Shown piece after piece: positions 12,776 to 62,242 of a stretch of 64,000 nucleotides of DNA; position 1 is the stretch's first letter, and each line of letters begins with the position of its first letter. The translations under genes were made by a program, and so were the position numbers. The stretch spans positions 124,001-188,000 of the forward strand of contig NZ_BMOQ01000007.1 of the NCBI RefSeq assembly GCF_014647155.1, given 5' to 3'. Under the pieces are notes generated by a model, which was not told the origin of the DNA, searched no databases, and saw only the letters and a list, made by a program, of their open reading frames with translations. The stretch comes from Halarchaeum nitratireducens (GTDB lineage Archaea > Halobacteriota > Halobacteria > Halobacteriales > Halobacteriaceae).

Positions 12776-12824
12776 TACGACTCGGTGGCGGTGACCGTAC
12801 CGCAATCGCACACCGCGACGGCGA

Positions 12825-12891: not shown

Positions 12892-12903
12892 ACACCGCGG
12901 CCG

Positions 12904-16489: not shown

Positions 16490-16914
16490 GTTTGCTCTCG
16501 CTGGCCGTTGATTTCGTCCCGAAGGTCGGTCTGGGCTGTCTCGCTCTCGGAAGTTTCGTCTTAACGGCGAGCGTGCTCGGGAACCCGAACTCCCCAGTCG
16601 GCGTGCTCCGTCCAAGGGTGGGTCGATCGGTAAGCGGCGTACAAGTCGTACTGAGCGCCAGCGCCGGCCTCGGAATCGCGTTTAGCGTGTTACACCTCGA
16701 ACGCACGCATCCACTGCTCCGTTCTGGGTTTCTACCGCGTTGCGACTCGACGTCGTTCACGTTCATCAGACCGCGCTCCTCGGTTTCAATCCCGTTCTGG
16801 GTTTCTACCGCGTTGCGACGAAGTAGTCGGAGTCGACAACGATCGCGTCCGGCCGTTTCAATCCCGTTCTGGGTTTCTACCGCGTTGCGACGTGAGCGTG
16901 TCGGAGTTCCTTGA
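16486..16914 (+). CDS. Small membrane protein whose 3' end runs into the CRISPR array
   Basis: The first 77 residues look like a real protein: MSLLSLAVDFVPKVGLGCLA and VQVVLSASAGLGIAFSVLHL form two helices, and the gene is coupled to the preceding one by an ATGA overlap. From about residue 78 the frame is made of CRISPR repeat and spacer DNA (SGFLPRCD and SIPFWVSTALRR are translated repeats) and ends in the third spacer. The original C-terminus has therefore probably been lost or replaced by the trailer end of array 1. Whether it is expressed is unknown. Confidence 0.5.
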   Translation: MSLLSLAVDFVPKVGLGCLALGSFVLTASVLGNPNSPVGVLRPRVGRSVSGVQVVLSASAGLGIAFSVLHLERTHPLLRSGFLPRCDSTSFTFIRPRSSVSIPFWVSTALRRSSRSRQRSRPAVSIPFWVSTALRRERVGVP

Positions 16915-38772: not shown

Positions 38773-38911
38773 ACTGGGGTTTGCTGGAGTGCGGTTGAAT
38801 CGGTGCCGGTTCTACTGACCGGGATTTGCACTCCCCTGAAGCCTCGACGAGTGACGCTTTCAGTGAATTGTTTTATTATCCGATGGCGGATTGGCAGAAG
38901 ATTGCCACTGT

Positions 38912-39200
38912 CTAATTCTGAACCCCCTCGATTGGCGTCTTTCCGTCGAGATCTTGGTGCGGTCTCTAACGGTTGTAGTAGTGCGGGAATCGTTCAAGCT
39001 ATTCGCGTATACTCGACCGACTGCCCACCCACGAGCTATGGCAGTAGTCGGCGCGCATTTTGAGGGTGTAAAACCACTTCTCGATGAAGTTCCGCTCAGT
39101 ATAGTTGATCCGACCCCTCAATCCTAATCGACTAAGAGCAGTCCGATAGCCAAATTGGTCAACGAGAGGTACAGTGTCTGAGAGGTCGTATTGGACTAAC
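38912..39200 (-). pseudogene. IS6-family transposase remnant (C-terminal part, two in-frame stops)
   Basis: On the minus strand the text reads VPLVDQFGYRTALSRLGLRG, then RINYTERNFIEKWFYTLKMR, HSSWVGSRSSIRE, stop, LERFPHYYNR, stop, RPHQDLDGKTPIE. This is the C-terminal end of the DDE domain of haloarchaeal IS6-type transposases (GRxxYTERNxIEKWFxTxKMR...SWVGSR...HYYNxxRPHQALxGKTP). The two stop codons inside YYN/RPHQ show that it is inactive. The N-terminal half and the terminal inverted repeats are not found, and it is cut at about 39200 by the next gene. Confidence 0.85.
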
Positions 39201-39272
39201 CGCCCGGGCCCGACGGAGGGTTCGTGTCGCGACGTGGTAGAATCCCACGGGGCTGAGGCCCGACCTTGCCTC

Positions 39273-40595
39273 TCAGTCACCCTGGGCGAACCGTTCTCGG
39301 AGTGCGGCTTCACGCGTCTCGAACTGCTCGATGTCGGCCCGAAGGTCGCGCTCAACGCGTTCGACTTGGGCGAGCGCGGCGTGGTCGTCGAGACCAGTCT
39401 GACCATCGTCCCTCGTCGCCTCACTCACCTGTTGTCGGTACGTCCGCGTGAGTCGATCGAGCGTGCCTGCGGGGTTGAACAGGATGTCGTTAGCAACCCG
39501 AACGTACCGGTCGAGTGCCGCGCCCTCCTTACCGGTGTAGAAGTGGGTGAGGGCGTGCGTCGCGCCCGTGTGGAGTGTCCACATGTCGATCTCGAAGGGA
39601 TCGTCGGCCTCGGCACGGGCGTCGCTGGCCGCGCGCTCAGCGAGGTAGTCGGGGAAGTCGAGGAGGGCGTAGAAGGTCTCGACGTCGAAGGGCACCTCGC
39701 GGAGGTCGAGCGTGATCTCGCGGGCATCAGTGATGAAGGCCGCGAGGTCGTCAGCGACGATCTGGAGTTGGCCGAGGAGGCGCTCCCACCAGGTCTCGAA
39801 GGACTGGACGTCCCCGACGTGCTTGACGGTTCGGCGATCCGTCAGCGCGTGGATCGAGTTCGCGCAGTAGGAGTCCTGTGCGAACCCCTCGACGTAGACC
39901 GCGTGGCCGCCGAAGAAGTCGTAGCCGGAGGAGAACCCGACCGCGATCGGTTCTTCGCGCCCCGGGAGCGTGACGGAGAGGCCGTCGAAGAGGACGTCCA
40001 TGTGGACCTCGCCGCCACCACGGTACTGTCTGATCGCGCCGAAGATGGCGTCGCCGAGCGGCCGGCCGTCGATCGTCTTCTCGGCGACGACGGCTTCGAG
40101 AGGCGTGTAGACGTCGTGGGGGTTGATGATCGCATAGCTATCCGTCGGCACGTGGAAGAGCGGGTCGACGCCGCGCGCGCGTGGGCGGCGAGACGCTCCG
40201 GATAGAGGGCGGACGCGGACTCGCGGACAGCGCGGGGGCAGTCGACCGCGGCGATGCCGGGTGCGGAGGCGCGCGAGCTGGCGACGTTTGCGCGACGTGA
40301 GCGTGTTCCCGCGTGCATCCCGCTTCCACCCGATCTCACTGGAGAGCCCGCGATCGTGTCGGCCTTCGGTGAGCGGTGGGCCCGTCCGCTCGACGGTCTC
40401 CTCCTCGTCGAACCCCGTGTAGAGTCGTCCACGGTGGTCGATCCGGTACTCATCGATGACGAGCCCGCACTCGACGCACGCCGTTTCGCCGCCGTCGGTC
40501 GCCGTGTCGCCTTCGCACTCCGGGCACCCCGGATCGGTCGGCAGTGTCTGTCCGTCGTCCTCGTCGAACTGTCGCTCGTAGATACGGCTACTCAT
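39273..40595 (-). CDS. Chimeric ORF: TFB N-terminus joined to a plasmid-type (DUF932-like) protein
   Basis: This 440-codon frame starts as transcription factor B (MSSRIYERQFDEDDGQTLPT, zinc ribbon CPEC...CVEC, then GPPLTEGRHDRGLSSEIGW, the B-finger region). From about residue 142 it continues as an unrelated protein, VDPLFHVPTDSYAIINPHDV to the end, with GGEVHMDVLFDGLSV and FFGGHAVYVEGFAQDSYCAN. The second part is of a type common on haloarchaeal plasmids and in integrated elements. The junction is low-complexity Arg/Pro sequence. The second gene has probably lost its own start by deletion. Whether the fusion is translated is unknown. Confidence 0.6.
   Translation of the reverse strand: MSSRIYERQFDEDDGQTLPTDPGCPECEGDTATDGGETACVECGLVIDEYRIDHRGRLYTGFDEEETVERTGPPLTEGRHDRGLSSEIGWKRDARGNTLTSRKRRQLARLRTRHRRGRLPPRCPRVRVRPLSGASRRPRARGVDPLFHVPTDSYAIINPHDVYTPLEAVVAEKTIDGRPLGDAIFGAIRQYRGGGEVHMDVLFDGLSVTLPGREEPIAVGFSSGYDFFGGHAVYVEGFAQDSYCANSIHALTDRRTVKHVGDVQSFETWWERLLGQLQIVADDLAAFITDAREITLDLREVPFDVETFYALLDFPDYLAERAASDARAEADDPFEIDMWTLHTGATHALTHFYTGKEGAALDRYVRVANDILFNPAGTLDRLTRTYRQQVSEATRDDGQTGLDDHAALAQVERVERDLRADIEQFETREAALRERFAQGD
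40170..40595 (-). pseudogene. Truncated, frameshifted transcription initiation factor IIB (TFB)
   Basis: The first about 110 codons are a normal TFB N-terminus up to LTSRKRRQLARLRT. After that the cyclin-fold sequence is missing or shifted. In another frame, at about 40240-40170, CPRAVRESASALYPERLAAH remains, which matches the first cyclin repeat (LPRAVRExAxxLYRxAL). A deletion or indel has thus removed the TFB core. It forms the 5' end of the chimeric frame described separately. Confidence 0.7.
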
Positions 40596-40778
40596 GGTCG
40601 TGTCCGGGACGGCTCTCCGGGCCGCCCCGCGCCCGTCAGGGGCGGCCCACAAACGGCGACTGGAGTCGACCGCAAAGCCAAACCCGGGCACTGATGTCGA
40701 GAGAGACTAGCGAGAGCGCGACCTAGAGAGGAGACATCACTCATCTGCGCTTTTTGTCAGTCGGCAGCCCGGTGTCGC

Positions 40779-41615
40779 GTGTCTGCTACTGCCGTATTTG
40801 AGGAGCGTCTACACGTCCCGCTCCCATCTCTCCCCGAACAGCACCGCATCGCCGACATCCTCTCGACAGTTGATGAGCAAATTCAGCGGACGGACGAGAT
40901 CATCGAGGAAACGGAGGCGTTGAAGCGTGGCCTGATGCAGGGCTTGCTTACGACCGGTCCCGGGGACAACGTGGGGACGACAGAAGCGAGGATCGGGCCG
41001 ATGCCGGTCGAGATTGCCGACAACTGGGAGGTGGACTATTTCGACGACGTGATCGAACTGAATCCCAACGACGACGTGCCAAACGAGGATTCGTTCCCAT
41101 TCCTCCCGATGGACGCGGTGAATGAAGACACCCGTACCGTCGATTACTGGGAAGAACGCGACGCCGAGGACTGCACACGACCTCGATTCCGTAAAGGAGA
41201 TACGGTGTACGCGAAGACCACGCCCTGTACCGAGACCGGGAGGATCGCGTTCATCGAACAGCCCGATGGCCTCGCTTTCGGCTCGACAGAGTTTCTCGTT
41301 TTCCGTGCCCGGGAGGGACTGATGCTCCCCAAGTACGCCTACTACCTTTTGAGCCTCCCGCAGTTCCGTGCCGTCACGGTTTCCCTAATGGAGGGTTCGA
41401 CGGGCCGCCAACGGGTCCCATCCGATACGTTCGAGCAGAACATTCGGATCCCGGTTCCTCCGATGGAGGAGCAGCGGACAATCGTGGAAGCGCTTGACTA
41501 CGTGCAACGACGAAGTGAGCAGGAGCGCGAAACCAAACGGGCCTACCAAGACCTCAAGCGCGGTCTGATGCAGGACCTCCTCACGGGGAAGGCCCGCGTG
41601 AGCGAAGACACGTAG
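40779..41615 (+). pseudogene. Type I restriction specificity subunit HsdS, N-terminally truncated
   Basis: This 278-codon frame begins (GTG) at the end of a first target-recognition domain: VPLPSLPEQHRIADILSTVD, the conserved HsdS spacer helix with EALKRGLMQGLLTTG. A complete second TRD follows (WEVDYFDDVIELNPNDD to GRQRVPSDTFEQNIRIPVPP) and a second helix (YQDLKRGLMQDLLTGKARVS). A normal HsdS has about 400-450 residues, so the first TRD is gone. No hsdM or hsdR is in the window. It could still act as a half-subunit, but it is more likely a relic. Confidence 0.8.
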
Positions 41616-46045: not shown

Positions 46046-46192
46046 TCGACTCGTCCTCTCGCGGCGAGAAGTGGAGATCGACGGAGCGTCTCCCCTTCAC
46101 GCACCGAGGGCACGTCTACGCCGCGCTCCTCGCGCTCGTCCCGTGTCGCCGGTGTCCGAACGCATTTCGGATCGGCAGTCCAACGCGTCGCT

Positions 46193-46507
46193 ATGACACG
46201 AACCGCCGTCATCGCCGGTGTCGGCCCCGGACTGGGTGCGTCACTCGCCCGAACGTTCGCCGCGGAGGGCTGTCGAGTCGCGCTGTTCGCGCGCTCGACG
46301 GCGTACATCGAGGAGCTCGCCGACGACCCCCCCGATCCGGGTGAGGGACTCGCGGTCACGGTCGATCTCGCGGACGTCGAGGCGATCCGCGAGGCCTTCG
46401 GGACCGTCCGCGAGGAATTCGGCCCCGTGGACGTCCTCGTGAACCACGCGAGCGCGGCGTCGTGGACCGGCCTCATGGACAGGGACGTTGTGAAAGGCGA
46501 AAACTGA
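46193..46507 (+). pseudogene. Short-chain dehydrogenase truncated after about 100 codons
   Basis: The frame MTRTAVIAGVGPGLGASLAR (Rossmann GxGxGLG) and REEFGPVDVLVNHASAASWT is a normal SDR N-terminus. It stops after SWTGLMDRDVVKGEN at 46507, where the catalytic YxxxK half should follow. The break coincides with the start of the orc1-like remnant and origin repeat at 46515, so the gene seems to have been cut by integration of the neighbouring replicon. Confidence 0.75.
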
Positions 46508-46514
46508 GAGAGAC

Positions 46515-46533
46515 ACACCACCTCCAGATTGTT
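46515..46533. repeat. Origin repeat of family B, isolated copy at the island edge
   Basis: ACACCACCTCCAGATTGTT is a close match to the inverted repeats that flank the second orc1 gene (ACACCACCCTCAGATTGTT at 52343 and 52403). It lies just before a decayed copy of the end of that gene. Confidence 0.75.
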
Positions 46534-46569
46534 AGCGTTGAGTAGTCGGTCCAATACCTGCGGGGAGTG

Positions 46570-46650
46570 TTCTCTCAAGGGGTGTTCAATTCACTAAGGA
46601 CGTCACGAACGACCTCGTACGCGATGTCACTCTCCTATATGTAGTAGAAG
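46570..46650 (-). pseudogene. Decayed C-terminal end of an orc1/cdc6 gene
   Basis: On the minus strand the text reads YYI, stop, ESDIAYEVVRDVLSELNT, against YYTWESDIAYGVVRDVLDEL of the intact gene ending at 52461. Flanking DNA is also alike: TGTTCTCTCAAGGGGTGTTC matches TGTTCTCTCAGGGGGTGTTC (52453-52472). It is a direct copy about 6 kb away from the intact one, with a stop codon inside. Confidence 0.8.
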
Positions 46651-46800
46651 CTCATGATCTGGAAAATAATCATCTTGGTAATGACTTGGATGTTGTTCCT
46701 GCAGACTACCCTGCCAGATGCACAGAAGTCCCGCTGACCCATCTCGGGACAACCGCGTCTCCCTTCTTTGTGTCGTGTCGTTGGTTGATCGTACGGAGAC

Positions 46801-46936
46801 AGTACGTTTCGTATGCTTTGTCGCAGGTGGTCTCTCCAGTCCCCTCATCGGGGGAGTACAATTCGTATGCTTTCCCCACGTTCGTCCCGATGGGCCGACA
46901 ATATATCGGCGGGGGACAGTACATTTCGTATGTTAT
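46801..46936. repeat. Origin repeats of family A upstream of orc1 gene 1 (three copies)
   Basis: AGTACGTTTCGTATGCTTT (46801-46819), AGTACAATTCGTATGCTTT (46855-46873) and AGTACATTTCGTATGTTAT (46918-46936) are same-oriented copies. Inverted copies lie behind the same orc1 gene. This arrangement of ORB-like boxes around an orc1/cdc6 gene is typical of archaeal replication origins. ACAATATATCGGC (46899-46911) between copies 2 and 3 is AT-rich and may be part of the unwinding region. Confidence 0.8.
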
Positions 46937-47043
46937 CTGCCCATAAATGCGGTCTTAGAACTATATGAGGCGGACGATATTAGCAATCGAAGCAAGCGAA
47001 AGGTAGTTTTATATGTTAACTCGCCGATGGCTCTGTTACGCAC

Positions 47044-48243
47044 ATGGTCACGTCGTTCGATGATTTCACAGATACGCTCTTCGCAGACAAGAGCGTCCTC
47101 ACTGAGCGCCACCAACCTGACGAGATTCTCGAACGCGATGACGAGATTGAGCAATATCACTACGCCCTCCGAGACATTCTATTTGGTCGCGATCCGGAGA
47201 ACATCATGCTCTACGGGAAGGCCGGACTTGGAAAAACTGCGGTCACGAACTACATGATGGCTGAGCTTCAAGAGGCAGTCGCAGAGCGCCCCGCAGCGGA
47301 TGACCTCTACGTACACCAGATTAACTGCAACGGAATGACCCTCTACCAGACGCTCCGCTATCTCGTCAACGACCTCCTCCCGCCGAACGCGAGTGAGTTT
47401 CCGAAACGTGGCCTTGGGGTCACTGACGCGTTTGAAGAACTCTACGATCAACTCAATCAACGGGGCGGCACACATCTTCTTGTGTTCGACGAGATCGATC
47501 ACCTCGACGACGTCGACACCCTACTCTACGAACTCCCGCGAGCGCCCTCGAACGGAAAGCTCACCGACGCTAAGGTCGGCGTGATCGGAATCTCGAACAA
47601 CTACACGTTCCGGAAGAGTCTCTCGTCGAAGGTTCGAGACACCCTGATGGAGACGGAAATCTCGTTCGGATCGTACGATGCAGAGGAGTTGCGGACAATC
47701 CTCTCGGATAGAGCTGAACGCGCATTCGTTGAGGGGACATGCGACGAGGCAGCCATCGCGAAAGCAGCAGCTCTCGCGGCACGCGATATGGGGAACGCCC
47801 GCCAAGCGATCGATATGCTCCGGGTTGGCGCTGAAGTTGCTGAGGAGAACGGCGATTTACAAGTCACCGACGCCCACATCAGCGATGCTCAAGAGCGGGT
47901 ACGGCGTGGGCGTCTGCAGAACCGAATTCGCGATCAGACGCAGCATGCCCAATACGTCCTTGAGACGATCGCACTTCTTGAGCAAAGGGATCGTGCACCG
48001 ACACGTTCCAAGGAGATCAAGGAGCATTACGAGGGCGTTGCAGAGTCATGGGCCTCTGATCCCCTTACCACGCTCAAGAGCATTCAGGATCACCTCGCGG
48101 ACCTCCACATGCTTGGCTTCCTTACCCGTCACGACAAAAACGATGGCCTAAGTGGTGGACAACACTACGAGTACGAGCTCGACCTTGACGCGGATCTCGT
48201 TTTGGAGACGCGCCAGACGATCGAGGGAGCCGATATTCGCTGA
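47044..48243 (+). CDS. orc1: Orc1/Cdc6 replication initiator (gene 1)
   Basis: This 399-residue AAA+ protein has Walker A GKAGLGKT (residues 58-65), Walker B LLVFDEIDHL (about 149-158), sensor-1-like VIGISNNYTF and the C-terminal winged helix (TRSKEIKEHYEGVAESWASD). It binds origin repeats and recruits the MCM helicase. It is bracketed by family A repeats on both sides, which marks a self-contained origin. GTTTTATATGTTAAC (47007-47021) is a good promoter about 25 bp before the ATG. The protein is clearly different from the second Orc1 in the window. Confidence 0.94.
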   Translation: MVTSFDDFTDTLFADKSVLTERHQPDEILERDDEIEQYHYALRDILFGRDPENIMLYGKAGLGKTAVTNYMMAELQEAVAERPAADDLYVHQINCNGMTLYQTLRYLVNDLLPPNASEFPKRGLGVTDAFEELYDQLNQRGGTHLLVFDEIDHLDDVDTLLYELPRAPSNGKLTDAKVGVIGISNNYTFRKSLSSKVRDTLMETEISFGSYDAEELRTILSDRAERAFVEGTCDEAAIAKAAALAARDMGNARQAIDMLRVGAEVAEENGDLQVTDAHISDAQERVRRGRLQNRIRDQTQHAQYVLETIALLEQRDRAPTRSKEIKEHYEGVAESWASDPLTTLKSIQDHLADLHMLGFLTRHDKNDGLSGGQHYEYELDLDADLVLETRQTIEGADIR

Positions 48244-48333
48244 ATACGTGACGAGAGCATCGAAACAGATTGCTTGATCCGTCTTCAAGACGCCTGCGAA
48301 CAGTGCTGTCCTCTCGTGTCGTCCGATGTGGAG

Positions 48334-48414
48334 AGCATACGAAACGTACTGTGTTGGAGGACACAGCACAACGGATCACTCTCTGCTGCTCTCCAAAAGC
48401 ATACGAAACGTACT
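48334..48414. repeat. Origin repeats of family A downstream of orc1 gene 1 (two inverted copies)
   Basis: AGCATACGAAACGTACT (48334-48350) and AAAGCATACGAAACGTACT (48396-48414) are reverse complements of the upstream repeats. The orc1 gene is thus flanked by repeats facing each other. The second copy ends 6 bp before the stop codon of the small leftward gene. Confidence 0.8.
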
Positions 48415-48419
48415 GCCTC

Positions 48420-48560
48420 TCACTCGTGTTCGAGTGCGTCGTAGATCCCGCGGTTCGCGTCCCGGTCTGCTGCTGCGACTCGACGCACGAGTTCTCCTCG
48501 AATGTCTTCCATCACGTCGTCAAGCGGAGTGGCTGATTCAGCTCCTTCCTCAGTCGCCAT
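48420..48560 (-). CDS. Putative small partner (antitoxin-like) of the Doc-family protein
   Basis: This 46-residue acidic protein (MATEEGAESATPLDDVMEDI, then RGELVRRVAAADRDANRGIY) is encoded just downstream of the Doc-like gene. A longer start at 48611 (63 residues) would overlap the Doc gene by 26 bp; the ATG at 48560 avoids this. Doc-type toxins usually have a small antitoxin encoded beside them, most often upstream; here it is downstream. The antitoxin role is inferred from position and size. Confidence 0.5.
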   Translation of the reverse strand: MATEEGAESATPLDDVMEDIRGELVRRVAAADRDANRGIYDALEHE

Positions 48561-48585
48561 GATTGAGATCCCGGTCCGAGTGCCG

Positions 48586-49074
48586 TTAATCGTTCGGGTC
48601 TGCTGAGTCACCGGTTAGTTCCGCTAGTCCGTACTGAATGATGTCGTCACGCCACTGTTCGATTTCTCCCGCCAAGTCTATGTTCTCGGTCTGTGATCGC
48701 AGGTAATCGATCGTCTCTCCTTCGTCGACGGTTGCCTCATCGGTTCCGAACTGCTTGAGGACCGAGATGATCTCGTCGTCGTAGTCGAATTGGTAGCCAT
48801 TGAGAAAGTAGAAGACTGACGTCGTGTTGAGTGCAGTCCGTTTGTTGGCGTCGACAAACGGATGGTTAGTCACCAACAGGCGGAGCAGGTGAAACGCCTT
48901 CTCGTGAATCGTTTCAGGTACCGCTCCAAACGCCCCCTCTTCGATGTAGGTCAGCGCGAACGCAATGTCTCCCTGGTTCTGGATACCGGACGCTGTGTCT
49001 GTGTATTCTGCGACGATATCGTCGTAGATGGCAAGAACGTTCCCCACGGATGGATACCAGAACGACTCAGCCAT
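48586..49074 (-). CDS. Fic/Doc (death-on-curing) family protein
   Basis: This 162-residue protein has the Doc version of the Fic motif, HPFVDANKRTAL, at residues 71-82, with the catalytic-type histidine and NKR loop intact. The helix before it (HEKAFHLLRLLVTN) and after it (TSVFYFLNGYQFDYDDEI) match the Fic core. Doc proteins phosphorylate EF-Tu in bacteria; in an archaeon the target could be the elongation factor or something else. It belongs to a likely toxin-antitoxin pair in the replicon-like island and may help its maintenance. Confidence 0.87.
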   Translation of the reverse strand: MAESFWYPSVGNVLAIYDDIVAEYTDTASGIQNQGDIAFALTYIEEGAFGAVPETIHEKAFHLLRLLVTNHPFVDANKRTALNTTSVFYFLNGYQFDYDDEIISVLKQFGTDEATVDEGETIDYLRSQTENIDLAGEIEQWRDDIIQYGLAELTGDSADPND

Positions 49075-49228
49075 TCGGTTGTACTTCCAAGCTGAGTCGG
49101 TGTAACCCTTTTCGTCGTCCAGAATCGGGCTTCGCTGAATCCCCCACTACTGTTGAGCAGTGCATTCGTCGTGACCTAACGATTTGACTATCGACTATCG
49201 CGGTGTAGGACATGGCGCCCTCTCTCTT

Positions 49229-49753
49229 CTAGAACTGGGTTGTGTCAGGTTCGTCGGGTTTGAACGAGTCGGAACCATCGCCACCACGGCGGCCGAGGAA
49301 GACGATGGCGTCGAGGGCGCCGCGGGTAAAACGGGCTTCGTACGACCAGAAGAATCCGTCCCTGATGTCGTCGCGCGACCCGTGGAACTCGAAGGTTCCG
49401 TGCATGTTGTGGTCAAGCCAGAACTCTTCGGCGACGGTCTGCGTTCGCGGTGCCGCCGGGGAGAGCCCCCGTTCGAGGCAGTCGCTCAGAGTCGCGTCCT
49501 CACAGAACGCGACGTAGTCCGCCCACGAGTCGAAGCCGTGCGATTCCGCCTCAGCTCGTTTCTCCGACTCCGTCTTCTCCCGGAATTCCTCTTCGTGGCG
49601 GAGAAGGCGTCCATCCGTAGTGAGCTTGTACTGCTGTCCGGCCGGGTAGCCGATGTCCTTCGTCTGCCACTCGATCTCGCTCGGCCGTCGGTCTGCGGGG
49701 AACTTCGGAAGGTCAATCTCGTCTTCGACGACGAGCGGGTCGTACATCCCCAT
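49229..49753 (-). CDS. Haloarchaeal protein of unknown function
   Basis: This 174-residue acidic protein starts MGMYDPLVVEDEIDLPKFPA, followed by WQTKDIGYPAGQQYKLTTDG. That is a conserved start of a family of haloarchaeal accessory proteins whose role I do not know. The middle is Glu/Lys-rich (REKTESEKRAEAESHGF) and the end is DAIVFLGRRGGDGSDSFKPD. A start 10 codons earlier (49783) is possible, but MGMYDPL is the family-like start. It is encoded alone. Confidence 0.65.
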   Translation of the reverse strand: MGMYDPLVVEDEIDLPKFPADRRPSEIEWQTKDIGYPAGQQYKLTTDGRLLRHEEEFREKTESEKRAEAESHGFDSWADYVAFCEDATLSDCLERGLSPAAPRTQTVAEEFWLDHNMHGTFEFHGSRDDIRDGFFWSYEARFTRGALDAIVFLGRRGGDGSDSFKPDEPDTTQF

Positions 49754-50863: not shown

Positions 50864-51138
50864 CTATTTGTTGCTGCCTTCATCTGACTGGTCACTACCA
50901 GCGAGCGCATCGAGGACGTCTCGCTGCTCCTCAAGCCGGCCCCGCGTCGTGCTCGCTCTTTCTCCCACGCTATACCGCGGCGAAGAAGGGGGGACCAAGC
51001 GACAGTCGGGCTCCTTCGGTGGAATCAGACGTTTCCGTCTGTGTTCAAGCAGCGTTGCTGAACGGAGGGGCAGGCCGCTTCCCTGCTCGTGCTGACTTCT
51101 CCACTGAGGAAGCGGTGCAACTCTTCGATTGAGCGACT
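50864..51138. other. Intergenic region between the TumE-like operon and the epimerase gene
   Basis: An open frame on the minus strand ends RLEEQRDVLDALAGSDQSDE and could be the tail of a lost protein, but it lacks a start outside the epimerase gene. No other feature is recognised in these bases. Confidence 0.4.
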
Positions 51139-52056
51139 CTACTGATACTGAGCGCAGACCTCTTCGATGCCCTCCTGGAAGGAGATTCGGGGTCCCCACC
51201 CGGTCGCCTCCGTCATCTTCGTGATGTCGGCCATGGTGTCGTGGACGTAGACGTCCTCGGGGATGGGGTTCTCGACGTACTCGGGTTCGATGTCGGTGCC
51301 CAGCCCGTCGTTGAGCATCTCGACGAGCGTGTTGAAGGAGTAGCTCTCGCCCGTGCCGAGGTTGTAGACGCCGTCGAGGCGTTCGTCGGCGGCGAGTTCG
51401 AGGCCGCGGACGATGTCGGAGACGTGCGTGAAGTCCCGGGTCTGCGTGCCGTCGCCGTAGAGGACTGGGGCGTCGCCGTGCGCCATGTCGTCGGCGAACT
51501 GCGCGATGACGTTCGCGTACTCGCCCTTGTGTTCCTCGCTCCCGCCGTAGCCCTGGTACACCGAGAAGAAGCGCATGCCCGCACAGGTGATGTCGTGGAA
51601 GTTCGAGTAGTACTCGGCGTACTTCTCGCGGGCGAGCTTCGAGGCCTCGTAGCCCGTGTTGACGTGGACGTCCATGTCCTCGGGGCTCGGCTCGGTCCGA
51701 TTGCCGTAGATGGAGGACGTCGAGGCATACACGATCGTCTCGCAGCCGTCCTGGACGGCCTGCTCGACGGTGTTGACGAATCCCTCGACGTTCACGCGCG
51801 CACCGCGCTGAGGGTTCTCCTCGTGCATCGCGTACGACGAGAGCGCGGCGAGGTGAAAGACGACATCGACGTCCGTCGGGAGATCGTCGTCGAGGACGCT
51901 CGCGTCCACGTACTCCACGTCGTCGTCGAGGTTCTCGGGCGTGCCAAGATAGCCGTCGTCAAGCGCGAGGACGTCGTTGTCCGCGGCGAGGTGGTTTGCC
52001 AGATTCGACCCGATGAAGCCCGCACCCCCGGTGACGAGGATCCGCTGGTTCTGCAT
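51139..52056 (-). CDS. NAD-dependent sugar epimerase/dehydratase (GalE-like SDR)
   Basis: This 305-residue extended SDR has GGAGFIGSNLANHL (TGxxGxxG, residues 9-24), STSSIYGN, and the YxxxK active site in GYEASKLAREKYAEYY (about 145-160). HVSDIVRGLELA and YNLGTGESYSFNTLVEML complete the C-terminal substrate domain. It probably acts on a nucleotide sugar such as UDP-glucose. GATATATATG (52074-52083) forms a TATA element about 25 bp upstream. It is placed between the two orc1 genes, away from the main glycan cluster. Confidence 0.88.
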   Translation of the reverse strand: MQNQRILVTGGAGFIGSNLANHLAADNDVLALDDGYLGTPENLDDDVEYVDASVLDDDLPTDVDVVFHLAALSSYAMHEENPQRGARVNVEGFVNTVEQAVQDGCETIVYASTSSIYGNRTEPSPEDMDVHVNTGYEASKLAREKYAEYYSNFHDITCAGMRFFSVYQGYGGSEEHKGEYANVIAQFADDMAHGDAPVLYGDGTQTRDFTHVSDIVRGLELAADERLDGVYNLGTGESYSFNTLVEMLNDGLGTDIEPEYVENPIPEDVYVHDTMADITKMTEATGWGPRISFQEGIEEVCAQYQ

Positions 52057-52460
52057 ACCGCAGTCTGGTCGGTCGATATATATGTATCTGGCCGTCGTCG
52101 GTCTCCGTGACGGTTCGCCTCAGAACGGAGGCGTATCGGACTCCGCGGGCGTGACCGCGTCGATACTCTACCACGTCGACCGACGCGAATGGAGATCTGG
52201 AGGATACTGTGCGTGAAGCGGACCTCGTACAGAAGCCTCCGCCTCAACGTCGTCGCGTAGCCGCGAGCGCCTCTCTTTGAACTCGTGTGTCTTCGTTTCG
52301 AGGTCATCGTTTTGCTTACGCGAGACGAAAATTGAGGGAGACACACCACCCTCAGATTGTTCCATCTCGTCGCCTGCTTGGGGGCACCACTTTCCAGCAG
52401 AGACACCACCCTCAGATTGTTAGCGTCGAGTGGGGGTCCGATACCGGCGAGGATGTTCTC
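52057..52460. other. Epimerase promoter and downstream flank of orc1 gene 2
   Basis: The left end contains the TATA element of the epimerase gene. The right half (52325-52460) contains two origin repeats and the sequence copied at 46490-46570. The middle (52090-52320) has no gene that I can support. Confidence 0.6.
52343..52421. repeat. Origin repeats of family B downstream of orc1 gene 2 (two copies)
   Basis: ACACCACCCTCAGATTGTT occurs at 52343-52361 and again at 52403-52421, 60 bp apart. They are inverted relative to the copies upstream of the gene. Together with the upstream copies they enclose orc1 gene 2. Confidence 0.85.
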
Positions 52461-53648: not shown

Positions 53649-54169
53649 GGTAGTTACTTCTCCTACAGAGACCACCATTAACAATCTGACGGTGGTGTCT
53701 GAAACAACAATAGGTGGTATGTGGAAAGGACACTGGTAGATGTTTGAGGATTTAATGGCTGAGGATACATTCTGAAGGTGGATCTTAGAATCCCAGATAG
53801 CAGTATATCGCGGAGCAATCTGACGGTGGTGTGCGTGTGTTCGTTGTCCACCGATCAATTGCTCACCAAAACAATCTGGCGGTGGTGTCCGAGGCATCGG
53901 AAGCCAGTAGGCGACTCCGAGTCTGCACCGCTGGGAGAGGGGAACGGCTGTGTGGTGGTCCGCGAGAGTGTGGTGCCCTTTCTATATCGGGTACTCACGA
54001 CGGCGTCGCGGCCGTATTGATGGGGTCAAGTCCGACCGTCGTCGGCTGGACAGTCGGCGAAACCACAGGGAACAACAAAAACAAGGAGTGCGAATCAGTC
54101 CACATCTTCGAACTTCTGGGGCGAGCGTTATCGACCGACTGATCGGCGACAGCGGTTGTCGACTCGCCC
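53649..54169. other. Putative replication origin region of orc1 gene 2
   Basis: These 521 bp contain no credible gene. They hold the family B repeats and AT-rich stretches around 53740-53770, where unwinding could occur. ACCACCATTAACAATCTGAC followed by GGTGGTGT (53671-53698) makes an additional inverted repeat over the first box. The right third (53930-54169) has no recognisable signal. Confidence 0.65.
53680..53889. repeat. Origin repeats of family B upstream of orc1 gene 2 (three copies and one weak)
   Basis: AACAATCTGACGGTGGTGTC (53680-53699), CAATCTGACGGTGGTGT (53816-53832) and AACAATCTGGCGGTGGTGTC (53870-53889) are same-oriented. ATTCTGAAGGTGG (53769-53781) is a weaker relative. These are ORB-type boxes in an orc1 upstream region, distinct in sequence from family A at 46801. 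Confidence 0.85.
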
Positions 54170-55078
54170 TCAGTCGTCTTCCAGTCGCCGGAGCTGCTCG
54201 CGGTGGAGCGTGACGAGGAGGTCGGAGAGGACGCCGAACATGAGGAGTTGGATCCCGAGGAGGACGGTGAACGCTGAGAAGAGCGCCATGATGTTGTGCG
54301 AAACACCGGCGGTGAACCACTCGACGGCGACGTAGATCGCGGTGACGGCGCCGGCCAGCGTCGAGACGACGCCGACGCTCCCGAAGTAGAAGAGCGGGTT
54401 GTTCGTCTTGGCGAGTTTGTAGAGTGCGAAGATGATGCGCGCCCCATCGCGGAACGGTCGGAGGTTCGTGTCCGAGGCGTCCGGGCGCGCGAGATACGTG
54501 ATGTCGACGACGCGGGTCTCGATGTCGTGTTTCGCGCACTTGACGGCCATCTCCGTCTCGATGGCGAAGCCGTCCGCGGTGAGGTGCATCCGCTCGAAGG
54601 ACTCGACGCTGAAGGCGCGATACCCGCTCAAGATGTCCCGGTAGTCGTAGCCGTGGATGAACGCGAACGCGCGATTGATCACCGAGTTCCCGAGGCCGTT
54701 GAGCGTGCTCATCGCGCCCTCCTCCATGTCCGCGAAGCGATCGCCGATGACGTGCTCGGCGTCGCCCTCTACGAGCGGGTCGAGCATCGCGGGGGCGTCT
54801 TCTGCCCGGTAGGTGCCGTCGCCGTCGAGCATCAATACGTACGGTTCGTCGACGTGGGCGACGCCCTCGCGGACGGCTTGGCCCTTCCCCGACCCGGACT
54901 GCGTGATGACGTCCGCGCCGTGCTCGCGCGCGATCTCCCGGGTATCGTCGTCCGAGCGACCGTCGACGACGAGGATCGACTCGAACCCCTCCGCCCGGAA
55001 GTCGTCGACGACGTCGCCGACGGTCTCCGCCTCGTCGAGCGTCGGGATGAGCACGCAGACCTCGGAGTAGTCCGGCAT
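54170..55078 (-). CDS. aglJ: Dolichol-phosphate glycosyltransferase, AglJ-like
   Basis: This 302-residue protein has a family 2 glycosyltransferase domain (VCVLIPTLDEAETVGDVVDD, residues 7-26, and VLMLDGDGTYRAEDAPAML with DGD near residue 84). Two C-terminal membrane helices follow (YFGSVGVVSTLAGAVTAIYV and IMALFSAFTVLLGIQLLMFG). AglJ adds the first sugar to dolichol phosphate in haloarchaeal N-glycosylation. The layout and length match AglJ, though related DPM-like enzymes exist. It opens the surface-glycan cluster. Confidence 0.82.
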   Translation of the reverse strand: MPDYSEVCVLIPTLDEAETVGDVVDDFRAEGFESILVVDGRSDDDTREIAREHGADVITQSGSGKGQAVREGVAHVDEPYVLMLDGDGTYRAEDAPAMLDPLVEGDAEHVIGDRFADMEEGAMSTLNGLGNSVINRAFAFIHGYDYRDILSGYRAFSVESFERMHLTADGFAIETEMAVKCAKHDIETRVVDITYLARPDASDTNLRPFRDGARIIFALYKLAKTNNPLFYFGSVGVVSTLAGAVTAIYVAVEWFTAGVSHNIMALFSAFTVLLGIQLLMFGVLSDLLVTLHREQLRRLEDD

Positions 55079-55257
55079 CGATTCGAAACGCGACGCGGAG
55101 AGGGAAAAAGGATTGCGTGTTCGGTTACTGCGTCGTCTTCACGAACTTCACGGCGTCGCGGGAGACTGCCCTACTCTTCGCGGCTCTCGCTGAGGCGTTC
55201 CCAGATCTCGGTGCAACCGGCACCGTCTTCGACATCGTCCAGGTGTGCACCATCTTG

Positions 55258-55278
55258 GTTACTCATACTTCGAGTAAC
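55258..55278. promoter_or_regulatory. TrmB-type operator upstream of the TrmB gene
   Basis: GTTACTC, seven unrelated bases, and GAGTAAC form a perfect 7-bp palindrome, fitting the TACT-N7-8-GAGTA sites described for haloarchaeal TrmB proteins. It lies about 72-92 bp before the regulator start and upstream of a possible TATA (GAGATAAGAG, 55284-55293). It also lies 180 bp before the leftward aglJ start. Autoregulation, perhaps with activation, is inferred. Confidence 0.7.
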
Positions 55279-55349
55279 TCTCCGCGTCGAGATAAGAGTT
55301 GTGCCAATCGACCGCCACGCTATTGCGCACCACCACCCGAAGTTCGTGT

Positions 55350-56210
55350 ATGATCGGAGACGACGAACCCGCGGACGTGCTCGAACGTCTCGACCTCACC
55401 GAGTACGAGGCGACAGCACTCGCGGAACTCCTCGCGCTCGGGCGGACGACGGCGCCCGACCTCTCGGAGGCGACCGGCATCCCGAAGGCCCGCATCTACG
55501 GCGTCCTCGACGGGCTCGCCGACCGGGGCTACGTGAAGGTGATTCCGGGCCGCCCGAAGCACTACCAACCGAAGCCACCCGAGCGCATCCTCGAGCGCGC
55601 CGTCGAGAACGAGCGCCAAGCGTTCGAGCGCTACCGGCAGGACGTCGAGGCAATGCGCGAAGAGTTTCTCGACACGTTCGAGCCGATGTACGAGGGGGCG
55701 AGCGAGGGCGTCACGCCCACGGAAGAGCTCTTCTGGGTCGTGGACGTTGGGGATCCCTCCGAGCAGGAGACACGCTCGCTCTATCGGGAGGCCGAAGAGT
55801 CAGTGTCGGTGATCACGAAGTCCTTCGAGTACTTCGAGCGCGTCGAGGAAGCGTTCGCGGACGCGCTCTCTCGCGGCGTCGACGTCGATGTCCTCTTTCT
55901 CCACCCCTCACATCTTACCGAGACGAACCGCGAGATCCAGCACGAAATCGTCGCGTATCTCCGCGAGACCTATCCCTCGGTTGACGTACGATTCAGTCGC
56001 GAGCAGCTGCCGTGGCGCGGGACGTTCGTGGACCCGAGCATGGATTACGAGACCGGCCGAGCCATCCTCCTCGTCGAGGAACGCGACGTCCCGCTCTCGA
56101 TGCGGCAGGCGGCGGTCACGGAGAACGGCTCGTTCGTCGCGGGTCTCGAACGCTTCTTCGACCTTGTCTGGGAATACGAGGCGGCGAGCGCGGACAGTAT
56201 CAACGAGTAG
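55350..56210 (+). CDS. TrmB-family transcriptional regulator
   Basis: This 286-residue protein has a TrmB-type N-terminal HTH (LERLDLTEYEATALAELLAL, then TTAPDLSEATGIPKARIYGV; residues 10-60), a coiled linker (residues 85-125) and a C-terminal ligand domain that starts with EELFWVVDVGDPSEQETRSL. TrmB proteins sense sugars and control sugar metabolism. The ATG at 55350 follows GTGT; a longer start at 55299 adds a non-family stretch. Operator palindromes lie in front of this gene and of the next one, so it probably controls the glycan operon. Confidence 0.87.
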   Translation: MIGDDEPADVLERLDLTEYEATALAELLALGRTTAPDLSEATGIPKARIYGVLDGLADRGYVKVIPGRPKHYQPKPPERILERAVENERQAFERYRQDVEAMREEFLDTFEPMYEGASEGVTPTEELFWVVDVGDPSEQETRSLYREAEESVSVITKSFEYFERVEEAFADALSRGVDVDVLFLHPSHLTETNREIQHEIVAYLRETYPSVDVRFSREQLPWRGTFVDPSMDYETGRAILLVEERDVPLSMRQAAVTENGSFVAGLERFFDLVWEYEAASADSINE

Positions 56211-56270
56211 GTCGTTCCTACGCGGGCTTCGAACGCTGTGACGCGAGCGGACGGAAGACTTATGCCTTCT

Positions 56271-56291
56271 GTTACTCACAATTTGAGTAAC
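56271..56291. promoter_or_regulatory. TrmB-type operator overlapping the start of the glycan operon
   Basis: GTTACTC, seven bases, and GAGTAAC is the second copy of the palindrome found at 55258. It ends 1 bp before the ATG at 56293. A TATA-like ACTTATGCC is at 56257-56265. An operator between TATA box and start of a leaderless transcript would block transcription, so repression is the natural reading. Confidence 0.72.
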
Positions 56292-56292
56292 T

Positions 56293-57435
56293 ATGACCGT
56301 GCTCCTCACCGGTGCCGACGGCTACGTTGGTTGGCCGACCGCCCTCCGACTCGCCGACCGTCTCGACGACCGCGTCGTCTGCGTCGACAACGGCTATCGC
56401 CGCGAGTGGGTCGCCGAATCCGGCAGCGTCTCCGCGGTGCCCATCGACTCCCCCGAAGAGCGCTTCGCGGCCGTTGACGGTCTTTCCTACGTCGAGGGCG
56501 ATCTCGCCGATCGGGAGTTCGTCGAGCAGCTCATCGAGGTGTACGAGCCGGACACTGTCCTCCACGCCGCCGCCCAGCCCTCCGCCGTCTATGCGGGAAT
56601 CAACGGCGAGCGTGCGCTCTTCACCCAGCAGAACAACGTCTCGATGACGCTCAACCTCCTCCACTGCCTGCACGAGGCCGGCCTCGACGACACGCACTTC
56701 ATCGAGACGACGACCACGGGGGTCTACGGCGCGCCCGAGTTCCCCATTCCTGAAGGCCCCACCGAGATGTCGAACAGTGGGGAGAGCGACGACGTACCGT
56801 TCCCCGCGATGGGCGGCTCCTGGTACCACCAGACGAAGGCGTTCGACGCCGGGAACATGCGCCTCGCAAGCGGCGAGTGGGACATGCCCATTAGCGACGT
56901 CCGCACCGCCATCGTCTTCGGGACCGAGACGGCGGAGACGCGCGAGCACGCCTCGCCGACGCGCTTCGACTTCGACTACTACTTCGGCACCGTCGTGAAC
57001 CGCTTCTGCGCGCAGGCCGTCGCAGGCTATCCCATTACCGTGTACGGGAAGGGCGAGCAGCGCAAGCCGATGGTCACGCTCGAGGACACCGTTGAGAGCC
57101 TCGTTTCCCTCGTTGAGGCTGGTCCTGCGGCGGATGACGACGTCACCGTCTACAATCAGGTGAATCGTCCCGTCGCCATCGTCGAACTCGCCGAGACCAT
57201 CGCCGAGGTCGGCGAAGAGTTCGATCTCGATGCCGACGTCGAGCACTTCGAGAATCCGCGTGACGAGGACGAGGAGCACGAGATGGAGATGGATAACGAG
57301 CGCTTCCGTTCGCTCGTCGACGACGAGACAAGCCTCGAAGAGGGCATCCGTGACGTTCTTTCGACGCTCGTCGAGCACGACGAACGCATCGCTGCCCACG
57401 AGGACCGCTTCCTGCCGGGGGTGCTCTCCGATTAG
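56293..57435 (+). CDS. UDP-sulfoquinovose-synthase-like (SQD1/Agl3-like) NAD-dependent enzyme
   Basis: This 380-residue SDR has GADGYVGWPTALRLADRL (residues 7-24), VDNGYRREWVAESGSVSAVP (matching the SQD1 'R.....gs.SL.P' region) and the active site SWYHQTKAFDAGNMRLA (about 176-192, YxxxK). The tail FLPGVLSD ends it. The family converts UDP-glucose and sulfite to UDP-sulfoquinovose, used for sulfated glycans in archaea. It is first in an operon of sugar genes and has the TrmB operator at its start codon. Confidence 0.83.
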   Translation: MTVLLTGADGYVGWPTALRLADRLDDRVVCVDNGYRREWVAESGSVSAVPIDSPEERFAAVDGLSYVEGDLADREFVEQLIEVYEPDTVLHAAAQPSAVYAGINGERALFTQQNNVSMTLNLLHCLHEAGLDDTHFIETTTTGVYGAPEFPIPEGPTEMSNSGESDDVPFPAMGGSWYHQTKAFDAGNMRLASGEWDMPISDVRTAIVFGTETAETREHASPTRFDFDYYFGTVVNRFCAQAVAGYPITVYGKGEQRKPMVTLEDTVESLVSLVEAGPAADDDVTVYNQVNRPVAIVELAETIAEVGEEFDLDADVEHFENPRDEDEEHEMEMDNERFRSLVDDETSLEEGIRDVLSTLVEHDERIAAHEDRFLPGVLSD

Positions 57436-58330
57436 CAACACCATCCTCGTCACCGGCGGCGCGGGCTACGTCGGGAGCGCGCTCGTCCCGCGCCTCCTTG
57501 CCGGAGGCTACGACGTCCGCGTCCTCGACGACTTCAGCCTCTCCACCCCCCGCAATCTGATGGGATCGTCGCTCTCCGATGTCGACTTCCACCGCGGCGA
57601 CATCCGCAAGCGTGACGCCGTCGACGTGGCGATGGCGGACGTTGACGCCGTGATCCACCTCGCCGCCGTCACGGGCGCTGCGCAGTCCCACGGGATGCGC
57701 GAGCGCGTCGAGGACATCAACGTTCACGGCACCGAAGTCGTCGCGGACGCCGCGGAGGCCGCCGGCGTCGAGACGTTCGTCCTCGCCTCTTCGTGTAACG
57801 TCTACGGCGACACCCACGATGAGGAACTCGACGAGGAGTCGACGACTGCGCCCGGCAACCCCTATGCGGAGTCGAAACTCGCCTGCGAAGATATCGTCGC
57901 TGCGCGCGACTTCACCGACGTCAACCTACGGCTCGCAACGAACTTCGGTTACTCGCCGGGCGTGCGCTTCAACCTCGTCGTGAACTCCTTCGTCTTCCGC
58001 GCGCTCGCCGGCGAACCGCTCACCGTGTACGGCGACGGGACGAACTGGCGGCCGTTCCTCCACGTCAAGGACACCGCGCGCGCCTTCGAGGCCGCGCTCG
58101 ACTGGCCCGCCGGAACCTACAACGTCGGCCTCGATAACTTCCGCATCGACGAGATCGCCGACGCCGTCGCCGACGTCGCCGAACGCGACATCGAGACGGA
58201 CTACCTCGCGGAGCGAGACCCCGGTCCGTCCTATCACGTCCACTTCGACCGGATGCACGAGCGCGGTTTCGAACCGATGCACGACCTGCGCGAAGGTATT
58301 TCAGCCCTCGCCGCACAGTTCCAAGCATGA
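57431..58330 (+). CDS. NAD-dependent sugar epimerase/dehydratase with non-standard start
   Basis: The frame reads SNTILVTGGAGYVGSALVPR, a normal extended-SDR start, and continues to YAESKLACEDIV (the YxxxK site) and a FLHVKDTARAFEAAL substrate region; about 300 residues. No ATG, GTG or TTG lies at the expected place. The codon just before SNTILV is ATT (57431-57433), overlapping the TAG stop of the upstream gene by one base. The first internal ATG (57558) would lose the NAD loop. ATT initiation or a sequence error is likely. The product acts on nucleotide sugars. Confidence 0.75.
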   Translation: MSNTILVTGGAGYVGSALVPRLLAGGYDVRVLDDFSLSTPRNLMGSSLSDVDFHRGDIRKRDAVDVAMADVDAVIHLAAVTGAAQSHGMRERVEDINVHGTEVVADAAEAAGVETFVLASSCNVYGDTHDEELDEESTTAPGNPYAESKLACEDIVAARDFTDVNLRLATNFGYSPGVRFNLVVNSFVFRALAGEPLTVYGDGTNWRPFLHVKDTARAFEAALDWPAGTYNVGLDNFRIDEIADAVADVAERDIETDYLAERDPGPSYHVHFDRMHERGFEPMHDLREGISALAAQFQA

Positions 58331-59274
58331 CCGAAACGCACACCATCGGCGTCACCGGCGCCGCCGGTTACATCGGTTCGCGCGTCACACGCGAACTGTT
58401 CGCCGACGGCCACGACGTCGTCCCCGTGGACGACTTTAGCTACGGGGACGTCACCGAAATCGACGGCCGCACAGTCCGAGAACTCGACGTCCGAGACGGT
58501 GACGCGCTCCGCGATGCTTTCGACGACGTGGACGCCGTGATGCATCTTGCCGCCGTGAGCGGCGTCCAGTCCTGCGCCGAGAACGAGCGTGAGGCGTTCG
58601 ACGTGAACGTCCGCGGGACTGAGACCGTCACGTGGTTCGCACGCGAACGCGGCCTCCCGCTTGTCTTCCCCTGCAGCATGGCCATCCTCGGCGAACCGAC
58701 CGAGTTTCCCATCACTGCCGACCATCCGCGAGCGCCCGTCAACCACTACGGGCTGACGAAGAAAATGAGCGAGTCCGACGTCCACGATCTCGCGCGCGAC
58801 GAGTTCCCCGCACACGTCTACATGAAGTCGAACCTCTACGGCCACCACGAGATCGACGGTGAGACGATCGGGAAGAACACCGTCATCAACATCTTCGTCG
58901 ACCGTGCGAAGCAGGGGAAAGACCTCGAAGTCCACGCGCCCGGGACGCAGTCCCGTGACTTCATCCACGTGAAGGACGTCGCGCGGGCGTACCCACGCTC
59001 GCTTGACGTCCTCCTCGGCGCCGAGGTGGGCGCGACGACGCTTCCCATCGCGAGCGGCGAGGAGCACTCCATCCTCGAGATCGCCGAGATCGTTCGAGAA
59101 GCGGCCGCCGACGTCCGCGGAGCGGACATCGACGTCGAGATTGTCGAGAACCCGCGCGGCTCGGAGGCCGCGGGCGAGGACTTCACCGTCGACACCAGCG
59201 CGACGCAGGAAGCCATCGGCTTCGAGGCACACCACACCGTCGAGGAGACGGTCAGGGGGTTGTTGGCGGAATGA
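58327..59274 (+). CDS. NAD-dependent sugar epimerase/dehydratase
   Basis: This 315-residue SDR has GAAGYIGSRVTRELF (residues 10-24), VMHLAAVSGVQSC, and YGLTKKMSESDVHDLARDEF, where YxxxK is present. DFIHVKDVARAYPRSLDVLL and LPIASGEEHSILEIAEIV form the C-terminal part. It overlaps the upstream epimerase and the downstream nucleotidyltransferase by 4 bp each, so the operon is tightly coupled. The exact sugar is unknown. Confidence 0.87.
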   Translation: MTETHTIGVTGAAGYIGSRVTRELFADGHDVVPVDDFSYGDVTEIDGRTVRELDVRDGDALRDAFDDVDAVMHLAAVSGVQSCAENEREAFDVNVRGTETVTWFARERGLPLVFPCSMAILGEPTEFPITADHPRAPVNHYGLTKKMSESDVHDLARDEFPAHVYMKSNLYGHHEIDGETIGKNTVINIFVDRAKQGKDLEVHAPGTQSRDFIHVKDVARAYPRSLDVLLGAEVGATTLPIASGEEHSILEIAEIVREAAADVRGADIDVEIVENPRGSEAAGEDFTVDTSATQEAIGFEAHHTVEETVRGLLAE

Positions 59275-60425
59275 AGGCCGTGATTCTCGTGGCCGGCGAG
59301 GGCACCCGCCTCCAGCCGCTCACCGAGTCCCGGCCGAAGCCGATGCTCCGGGTGGCGAACCGACCGCTCCTCGAACACGTCGTCACGGCGGTCCGCGACG
59401 CCGGGATCGACGAGATCGTCCTCGTCGTCGGCTACCGGCGCGAACGCATCCAGAGCTACTTCGGCGACGGCGACGACTGGGGCGTCGACGTCACGTACGC
59501 GATCCAGGAGAAGCAGCTCGGGACCGGTCACGCGGTCCTGCAGGCCGAGTCGTTCGTCGAGGGGCCGTTCGTCGCGCTCAACGGCGACCGGATCGTGGAG
59601 AGCGACGACATCGAACGCGTCGTCGACGCGCTCCGCGAGACGGGCGAGACGACGCTCGCGGTCTCGCGCGCCTCGCGGCCGAGCGACTACGGCGTCGTCA
59701 GCCTGGAGGGGGACAGCGTCGTCGACATCGTCGAGAAACCCCCCAAGCACGCCGCGCCGTCGGACGTCGTGAACGCCGGCATCTACGGCTTTAGCCCCTC
59801 GATCTTCGACGCGCTCCGCGAGACGACCGCCGAGGGTGAGCTCGCCGTGACGGACACGCTCGAACGGCTCGTGGGCGCGGGCGAAGTCGAGGCGGTGATG
59901 CTCAATGGGCAGTGGATCGACGTCTCGTATCTCTGGGACCTCCTCCGCGTCAACGCCTCCATCGTGACGGCCGAGACCGCTGAATCGGCGCAGATCGACG
60001 CGAGCGCGAGCGTCCTCGGCGACGTCGCGGTAGGCGACGACGTCCGTGTTCGTCCAGGCGCGCGCGTCCTCACGGGCACGGCGCTCGGCGACAGCGCCAC
60101 CGTGGGCGCGAACGCCGTCGTGGCGAACAGCGTCGTCCTGCCGGACGCGACCATCGGCGCGGGCGCGGTCGTCCGCGACGCCGTCGTCGGCGAGAACGCG
60201 ACCGTCGGCCCGAATGTCACGGTCGAAGGCGGCGAAAGTGACGTTCCCGTGAATGGCCGCGTCCACGCGGACGTGCGCCTCGGCGGCGTCGTCGGCGACA
60301 ACGCGCACGTCGGGGGTGCGACGACGCTCGCACCCGGGACGGTGCTCGGCAATCGCGTCGACGTTGAGACCGGGAGTCACGCCGACGGTCGGATCGAGAG
60401 CGACGCGCTGGTACGGAGGGCCTGA
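59271..60425 (+). CDS. Bifunctional sugar-1-phosphate nucleotidylyltransferase with left-handed beta-helix
   Basis: This 384-residue protein has the nucleotidyltransferase signature LVAGEGTRLQPLTESRPKPM (residues 7-26). NGDRIVESDDIE and VVNAGIYGFSPSIFDAL mark the active site. Hexapeptide repeats begin at about residue 235 (IDASASVLGDVAVGDDVRVR). This is the archaeal GlmU-like/AglF-like layout that makes UDP-GlcNAc or UDP/dTDP-glucose. Directly followed by glmS, a role in UDP-GlcNAc synthesis is likely. Confidence 0.87.
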   Translation: MKAVILVAGEGTRLQPLTESRPKPMLRVANRPLLEHVVTAVRDAGIDEIVLVVGYRRERIQSYFGDGDDWGVDVTYAIQEKQLGTGHAVLQAESFVEGPFVALNGDRIVESDDIERVVDALRETGETTLAVSRASRPSDYGVVSLEGDSVVDIVEKPPKHAAPSDVVNAGIYGFSPSIFDALRETTAEGELAVTDTLERLVGAGEVEAVMLNGQWIDVSYLWDLLRVNASIVTAETAESAQIDASASVLGDVAVGDDVRVRPGARVLTGTALGDSATVGANAVVANSVVLPDATIGAGAVVRDAVVGENATVGPNVTVEGGESDVPVNGRVHADVRLGGVVGDNAHVGGATTLAPGTVLGNRVDVETGSHADGRIESDALVRRA

Positions 60426-60427
60426 CG

Positions 60428-62242
<1,815 letters not shown>

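Follow-up and report, generated by a model that had tools for sequence, protein, structure and literature searches.

Halarchaeum nitratireducens carries an open frame that begins as a TFB and ends as a protein of plasmid type. Does it encode a new two-part product, or does it record the loss of the DNA that once separated two genes? The frame lies in the stretch of 64,000 nucleotides analysed here (the window), within a 211-kb contig (C7) of a draft genome of 27 contigs and 3.14 Mb. The original prediction, made from the letters of the window, described a broken TFB fused to a second conserved protein and favoured a deletion.

The fused frame and its two parts

The frame comprises 440 codons on the minus strand (Table 1); the plus strand over the same interval is not open, as its translation meets a stop within the range. 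A GTG at 40691 is a possible upstream start that would give a product of 472 aa. The ATG at 40595 is preferred because it aligns with the TFB ATG of the corresponding locus in Halarchaeum rubridurum (L044). The nearest named records to the fused frame are from Halarchaeum.

The first part retains the zinc ribbon and the adjoining region, named the B-finger in the original prediction and taken by us to be the B-reader/linker, with matches to PF08271 and PRK00423.1 in the first ~119 residues. The zinc-ribbon model PF08271 matches residues 24-54 (E 1.1e-5) with 25.3 bits, which is below its curated cut-off of 29. Both C-x2-C pairs of the ribbon are present (CPEC and CVEC), in residues that align to L044. 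The NCBIfam TFB model PRK00423.1 matches residues 23-119 (E 1.2e-15; model positions 15-116 of 312), with a score of 57.4 bits against a cut-off of 384. No PF00382 match to the cyclin repeats was found in the fused frame, whereas the intact L044 TFB has two such stretches. In TFBs the N-terminus recruits RNA polymerase, and the cyclin repeats bind TBP and promoter DNA. The likeness to haloarchaeal plasmid-type TFBs (TFIIB family) is thus confined to the zinc ribbon and B-reader region, and the fused frame, with two cyclin repeats missing, would not be filed as a TFB.

The frame then runs without a stop into a different conserved protein, as had been foreseen. The phrog_13083 profile matches residues 141-437 (E 2.1e-105; profile positions 121-416 of 420), and by this match, which does not cover the full profile length, the second half is judged to be a truncated phrog_13083 member of ~300 residues. 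About 24 codons of foreign-frame sequence separate the two parts. Neither homology can be put down to chance, whereas the open frame can. No other locus in the genome matches both halves: the TFB half has 13 further matches (E <= 0.001), the second half none.

Table 1. Features of the fused locus, in window coordinates.
Feature	Position	Strand	Description or basis
Fused open frame	39273..40595	minus	440 codons, ATG to stop (translation)
In-frame TFB part, zinc ribbon and presumed B-reader/linker region	40243..40595	minus	Residues 1 to ~117; Pfam, NCBIfam, L044 alignment
Joint 1	40243..40252	minus	71 bp of TFB missing vs L044 (1825 -> 1887); shifts frame
TFB cyclin-repeat remnant, out of frame	40201..40252	minus	52 bp, 84.6% identical to L044 1887-1938
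Joint 2, TFB to second gene	40201..40206	minus	2042 bp apart in L044; register kept
Joint 3	40165..40180	minus	Net 4 bp fewer than L044, in a CG-repeat/GTCGAC stretch about 30 bp past joint 2; shifts frame back
phrog_13083 part (predicted DUF932-like fold)	39276..40175	minus	Lacks first ~81 residues; profile match, alignments
Last 63 bp of upstream DNA common to L044	40596..40658	minus	Homology ends at 40658
10-bp inverted repeat, 10-nt gap, just upstream of ATG	40619..40648		9-bp core kept in L044 (1424-1451)

An intact orthologous locus in Halarchaeum rubridurum

In L044 both parent genes are intact and separate. The TFB gene (309 aa; 1476-2405) and the phrog_13083 gene (384 aa; 3758-4912) have the same order and share a strand, as in the window. 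An identical second protein is found in genome G003, where the same gene has the same coordinates, and the two genomes are taken as one strain. About 100 kb around the L044-type locus is collinear with the window in inverted orientation, in seven blocks that total 26 kb (window coordinates 1065-6493, 6550-16719, 39288-40206, 40243-40658, 46142-46482, 51134-52103 and 54131-62240), and because of this collinearity the two loci are considered orthologous. The TFB part kept in the window is 83-88% identical to the L044 TFB, and the ~300 residues kept of the second half are 89-90% identical to the L044 protein.

The interval between the two L044 genes contains two short minus-strand genes, which received no toxin-antitoxin assignment from Pfam, as well as part of the C-terminus of a second TFB (L044:3370-3486; 39 residues, 72% identical). 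This fragment appears to be left over from a duplication or rearrangement that took place earlier at this site. On the other side, a CRISPR-type array (L044:5026-8900) starts roughly 100 bp beyond the end of the intact phrog_13083 gene. Its 30-nt repeat, GCTTCAACCCCACAAGGGTACGTCTGAAAC, was counted 53 times in one repeat family, with a spacing of mostly 63-67 bp, and the window has no homologous DNA there.

Because both genes are intact and separate at an orthologous, collinear locus, the fused frame is read as the product of a deletion. This agrees with the original prediction, which can now be refined to three changes and to the loss of the start of the second gene.

Three joints account for the fusion

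Alignment of both halves with intact homologues, which had been proposed as a way to locate the deletion, placed three joints to within a few bases, the window minus strand matching L044 in three blocks. The first block begins 63 bp ahead of the TFB ATG and runs to L044 1825, with 87.5% DNA identity (L044 1413-1825). Joint 1 sits at an imperfect 10-bp repeat whose two sides agree exactly in four bases (GCCG). The cyclin-fold piece that was predicted to survive out of frame is indeed found beyond it: in the other frame it reads AAVDCPRAVRESASALY, and the L044 TFB has AAVDLSRAVRESACALY. At joint 2, which has three exact shared bases (ATC), TFB codon ~154 is linked to second-gene codon ~75. The 2042 bp that separate these points are given in L044 terms and need not equal the deletion size in the window lineage, because L044 may have gained its two short genes after the split.

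When jump 2 alone is applied to L044, an open frame of 464 codons results. The frame shifts of jumps 1 and 3 cancel out, and the DNA between these two jumps is read in a foreign frame as a result. This explains the low-complexity junction of the original prediction, which does have an Arg/Pro-rich look but consists of out-of-frame TFB and second-gene DNA and is not a linker. Beyond the joints, the fused frame has no stops or frame shifts. The short repeats of three or four bases at the joints may be regarded as modest evidence for a mechanism.

A scheme for the origin of the frame can be drawn from these blocks. In the ancestral module, a phrog_13083 (DUF932-like) gene would have stood downstream of a TFB gene on the same strand, and one deletion would have produced the in-register joint 2 that is seen against L044. 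The 71-bp loss inside the TFB and the net 4-bp loss after the joint, whose frame shifts are seen to cancel, would complete the present frame; the time order of these steps is one that we infer. The result would keep the RNA-polymerase-contacting part of the TFB, without the TBP- and promoter-binding cyclin repeats, and a second protein without its N-terminus. If expressed, the product could amount at most to a fragment able to bind polymerase, joined to a truncated form of the second protein.

The part lost from the second protein, its start and first ~81 residues, contains conserved columns. Among six intact second proteins 166 columns are invariant, 31 of them before residue 82, and hence lost, and 135 from residue 82 on. 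In a ten-row alignment the invariant columns start at residue 90, partly by construction, since the window row begins there.

The pattern of joints also bears on whether a sequencing or assembly error could have made the fusion from two intact genes. The genome is a draft and the third change falls in a CG repeat, both of which would suit an error. However, the frame is located inside a long contig, an error would have to account for two separate losses, one of 71 bp and the other of about 2 kb, whose joints lie at short repeats, and the genome has no second parent-gene copy of comparable identity. An artefact of this kind is very unlikely.

Chance, selection and the open frame

Of 20,000 simulated random deletions that joined the two L044 genes, 33% left the frame open as far as the stop of the second gene. 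The fraction fell to 21.5% when two more indels were placed at random; a draw with a TFB part too short to take the extra indel was counted as not open. The open frame was rejected as evidence of function, as 21-33% of random deletions are equally open. The two cancelling frame shifts could be a sign of selection; one in three cancels by chance.

For the second half, codon models were fitted to 295 codons in four sequences (window, L044, L050 and L016). Omega was 0.085 on the window branch versus 0.034 elsewhere (2 dlnL 3.6), and omega = 1 on the window branch was rejected (2 dlnL 7.4). A second, grid-based fit, again testing omega = 1 on the window branch, gave 2 dlnL values of 6.3 (second half, 296 codons) and 9.2 (joined halves, 388 codons); the 95% range of omega for the joined halves was about 0.045-0.25. 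For the TFB half alone (92 codons), omega = 1 was not rejected (2 dlnL 1.0). The window branch in these models starts before the deletion and spans pre-deletion time. The low omega and the little decay are therefore also explained by a late event, the alternative being that the frame is still constrained.

Conserved positions were compared at 136 near-invariant columns of the second half, defined with 28 reference copies (leaving out L015, which is the same as L044, and L038, L039, L042, L043, L051 and L052). Departures number 11 in the window, 10 in L044, 13 in L050 and 14 in L016, and 0-12 in the reference copies when these are left out one by one. Only two changes, R193H and S287T, are private to the window with respect to L044. 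By this measure, the second half of the fused frame appears nearly undecayed.

A young functional fusion, in which the TFB part brings RNA polymerase to the DUF932-like protein or serves as a decoy that competes with TFBs for polymerase, would account for a frame open end to end, for the low window-branch omega with omega = 1 rejected, for the nearly undecayed second half, and for parent genes that are regular same-strand neighbours (at least 25 of 29 loci; see below). We nonetheless regard it as unlikely. The fusion is present in one genome only among those searched, chance yields an open frame at the rates given above, the 31 conserved columns of the second protein are gone, and the upstream region differs from that of L044. 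In addition, the structure model of the fused frame is poor (pLDDT 57.4), and residues 102-158 lie below pLDDT 50 in it. It is quite improbable that selection acts on a newborn fusion whose polymerase-docking N-terminus ties the DUF932-like protein to RNA polymerase, with the cancelled shifts keeping the frame. If true, such a fusion would hint that both products act together on the many haloarchaeal elements carrying both genes on one strand.

The state of the second half could also reflect its expression alone, from an internal start, as a shortened phrog_13083 protein. This would agree with the location of 135 of the 166 invariant columns at residue 82 or later, and with a number of departures (11 at 136 columns) that falls in the range of the three intact Halarchaeum copies (10-14). 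Its own start and upstream DNA are deleted, however, and about 57 residues of the second half precede its first methionine, a GTG start being possible; we consider a working shortened protein highly improbable.

The fusion is found in a single genome

Among 146 relatives (26 matching at E <= 1e-60), only the window's own place covers both halves, and no second such place was found in 145 genomes of the class (28 matching at E <= 1e-100), a set that overlaps the 146 relatives. The fused frame matches 239 of the 72,556 plasmid records searched. All 40 matches listed among these 239 records match the second half, which bears out the plasmid-type character proposed for this protein. One record, from Halarchaeum sp. 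CBA1220, covers at least 80% of the query, in the form of two separate genes in the opposite order. A megablast search of 39200-40750 against plasmids found nothing, the exact 33-base joint pattern had 0 matches in viral contigs, and the TFB part had no relative in a scan of the viral contigs. As relatives, class genomes, plasmid records and viral contigs gave no second fusion, the idea that such fusions form a family was rejected. Among the papers listed in a literature search that covered the opening lines of abstracts, none dealt with this fusion or with a TFB beside phrog_13083.

A predicted DUF932-like fold for the second protein

No Pfam match was obtained for the intact L044 protein or any of 10 aligned members, and the three tested had no NCBIfam match. 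The DUF932 model PF06067 likewise has no match in 26 genomes of the family, that of L044 included. A structure model of the intact L044 protein was built from 10 sequences (pLDDT 66.7, pTM 0.54). When it was compared with BFVD, entries named DUF932 or TIGR03299 were recovered at E-values between 3.8e-6 and 8e-4 and a probability of 1.00, although at TM-scores of only 0.38-0.57. Among the matches listed by VIA-align against solved structures, the best had a Z of 5.9 at an rmsd of 12.2, and none was a DUF932 entry. The phrog_13083 protein is predicted to be DUF932-like in fold, and is not a member by sequence model.

Relatives of phrog_13083 at 30-38% identity are found in 13 halovirus records, several of which are duplicates of one virus; they include HSTV-2, HRTV-7, HHTV-2 and HCTV-2. 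Three viral contigs contain further relatives. The likeness to the phage- and plasmid-like phrog_13083/DUF932/TIGR03299 proteins involves ~300 residues of the window frame and the fold of its intact relative; the window part differs in the absence of the N-terminal residues.

Upstream DNA and surroundings

Just upstream of the ATG, both genomes contain an inverted repeat, GGGCCGCCCC / GGGGCGGCCC, that is perfect over 9-10 bp with arms 10 nt apart. No other exact copy is present in the window's genome, and with up to 2 mismatches 3 sites were found in the genome against 3 in the backwards control. A different, 11-bp inverted repeat (TTAACCAACAA/TTGTTGGTTAA) lies upstream of the intact TFB at L044:1361-1401 and is absent from the window; it may be either an operator or the end of an insertion. 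A scan for sigma-70 promoters and terminators, not made for archaea, gave 0 sites.

Upstream of the fused frame and divergent from it is a gene for a type I specificity protein (Methylase_S; 40779-41615) of 278 aa, perhaps shortened, judged by the usual sizes of such proteins. On the other side, 80 bp past the stop, the interval 38906-39192 is a repeat: at least 8 further long copies occur elsewhere in the genome, and relatives contain others. One full copy (L067) encodes a 231-aa transposase of the IS240 DDE type, and 38906-39192 is probably the remnant of such a gene. A stretch of low G+C (0.52-0.57) at 46500-49500 resembles an integrated plasmid in its contents: it has an Orc1/Cdc6-type gene at 47044-48240 and encodes a Fic/DOC protein at 48589-49074. 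These surroundings would fit an eroding plasmid-derived region.

TFB and phrog_13083 as neighbours

Examination of 29 phrog_13083 loci in 25 relatives revealed a TFB within 25 kb on the contig at no fewer than 25 of them, a lower bound drawn from the 44 TFB matches listed (the first 42 and two further). All 25 TFBs are on the same strand as phrog_13083, 23 are upstream, and 5 are within 2.5 kb. The loci in G001, G020, G098 and G119 have no TFB on the contig among the matches listed; a 44-residue TFB fragment (L036) is found in the vicinity of the G119 locus. Relative genomes have 3-14 TFB matches each, and by rough arithmetic chance would place a TFB within 25 kb at about one locus in seven, and fewer on the same strand and upstream. 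The 29 loci come from related genomes and hence are non-independent. Among six loci from named genomes with 4-kb flanks, a TFB is present at five (L044, L045, L046, L047 and L049) and not at L048. From these gene arrangements, TFB and phrog_13083 appear to be regular neighbours on haloarchaeal elements, and the deletion seems to have joined such a pair.

Conclusions

The fused frame is probably a recent, deletion-made chimeric gene remnant in a plasmid-derived Halarchaeum module, and most likely functionless. The three alignable blocks, short-repeat joints, lost domains, upstream DNA that differs from L044, confinement to a single genome among those searched and eroded-looking neighbours count for this reading. 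The frame that remains open past the joints, the low omega of the window branch and the presence of only two private changes count against it. Deletion-made pseudogenes of mobile-element regions likewise have intact orthologous parents, joints at short repeats, lost domains and an occurrence in one genome, but the fused frame differs from them in that it stays open throughout and shows little decay.

As a gene remnant, the frame is ordinary, and it is useful as a warning that automatic annotation may label it a TFB-like zinc-ribbon protein. We rate the frame itself of low interest and the gene pairing that it exposed of moderate interest. For the many TFBs borne by these elements, and for a protein family that has no assigned role, the pairing of TFB with phrog_13083 provides a first functional link.
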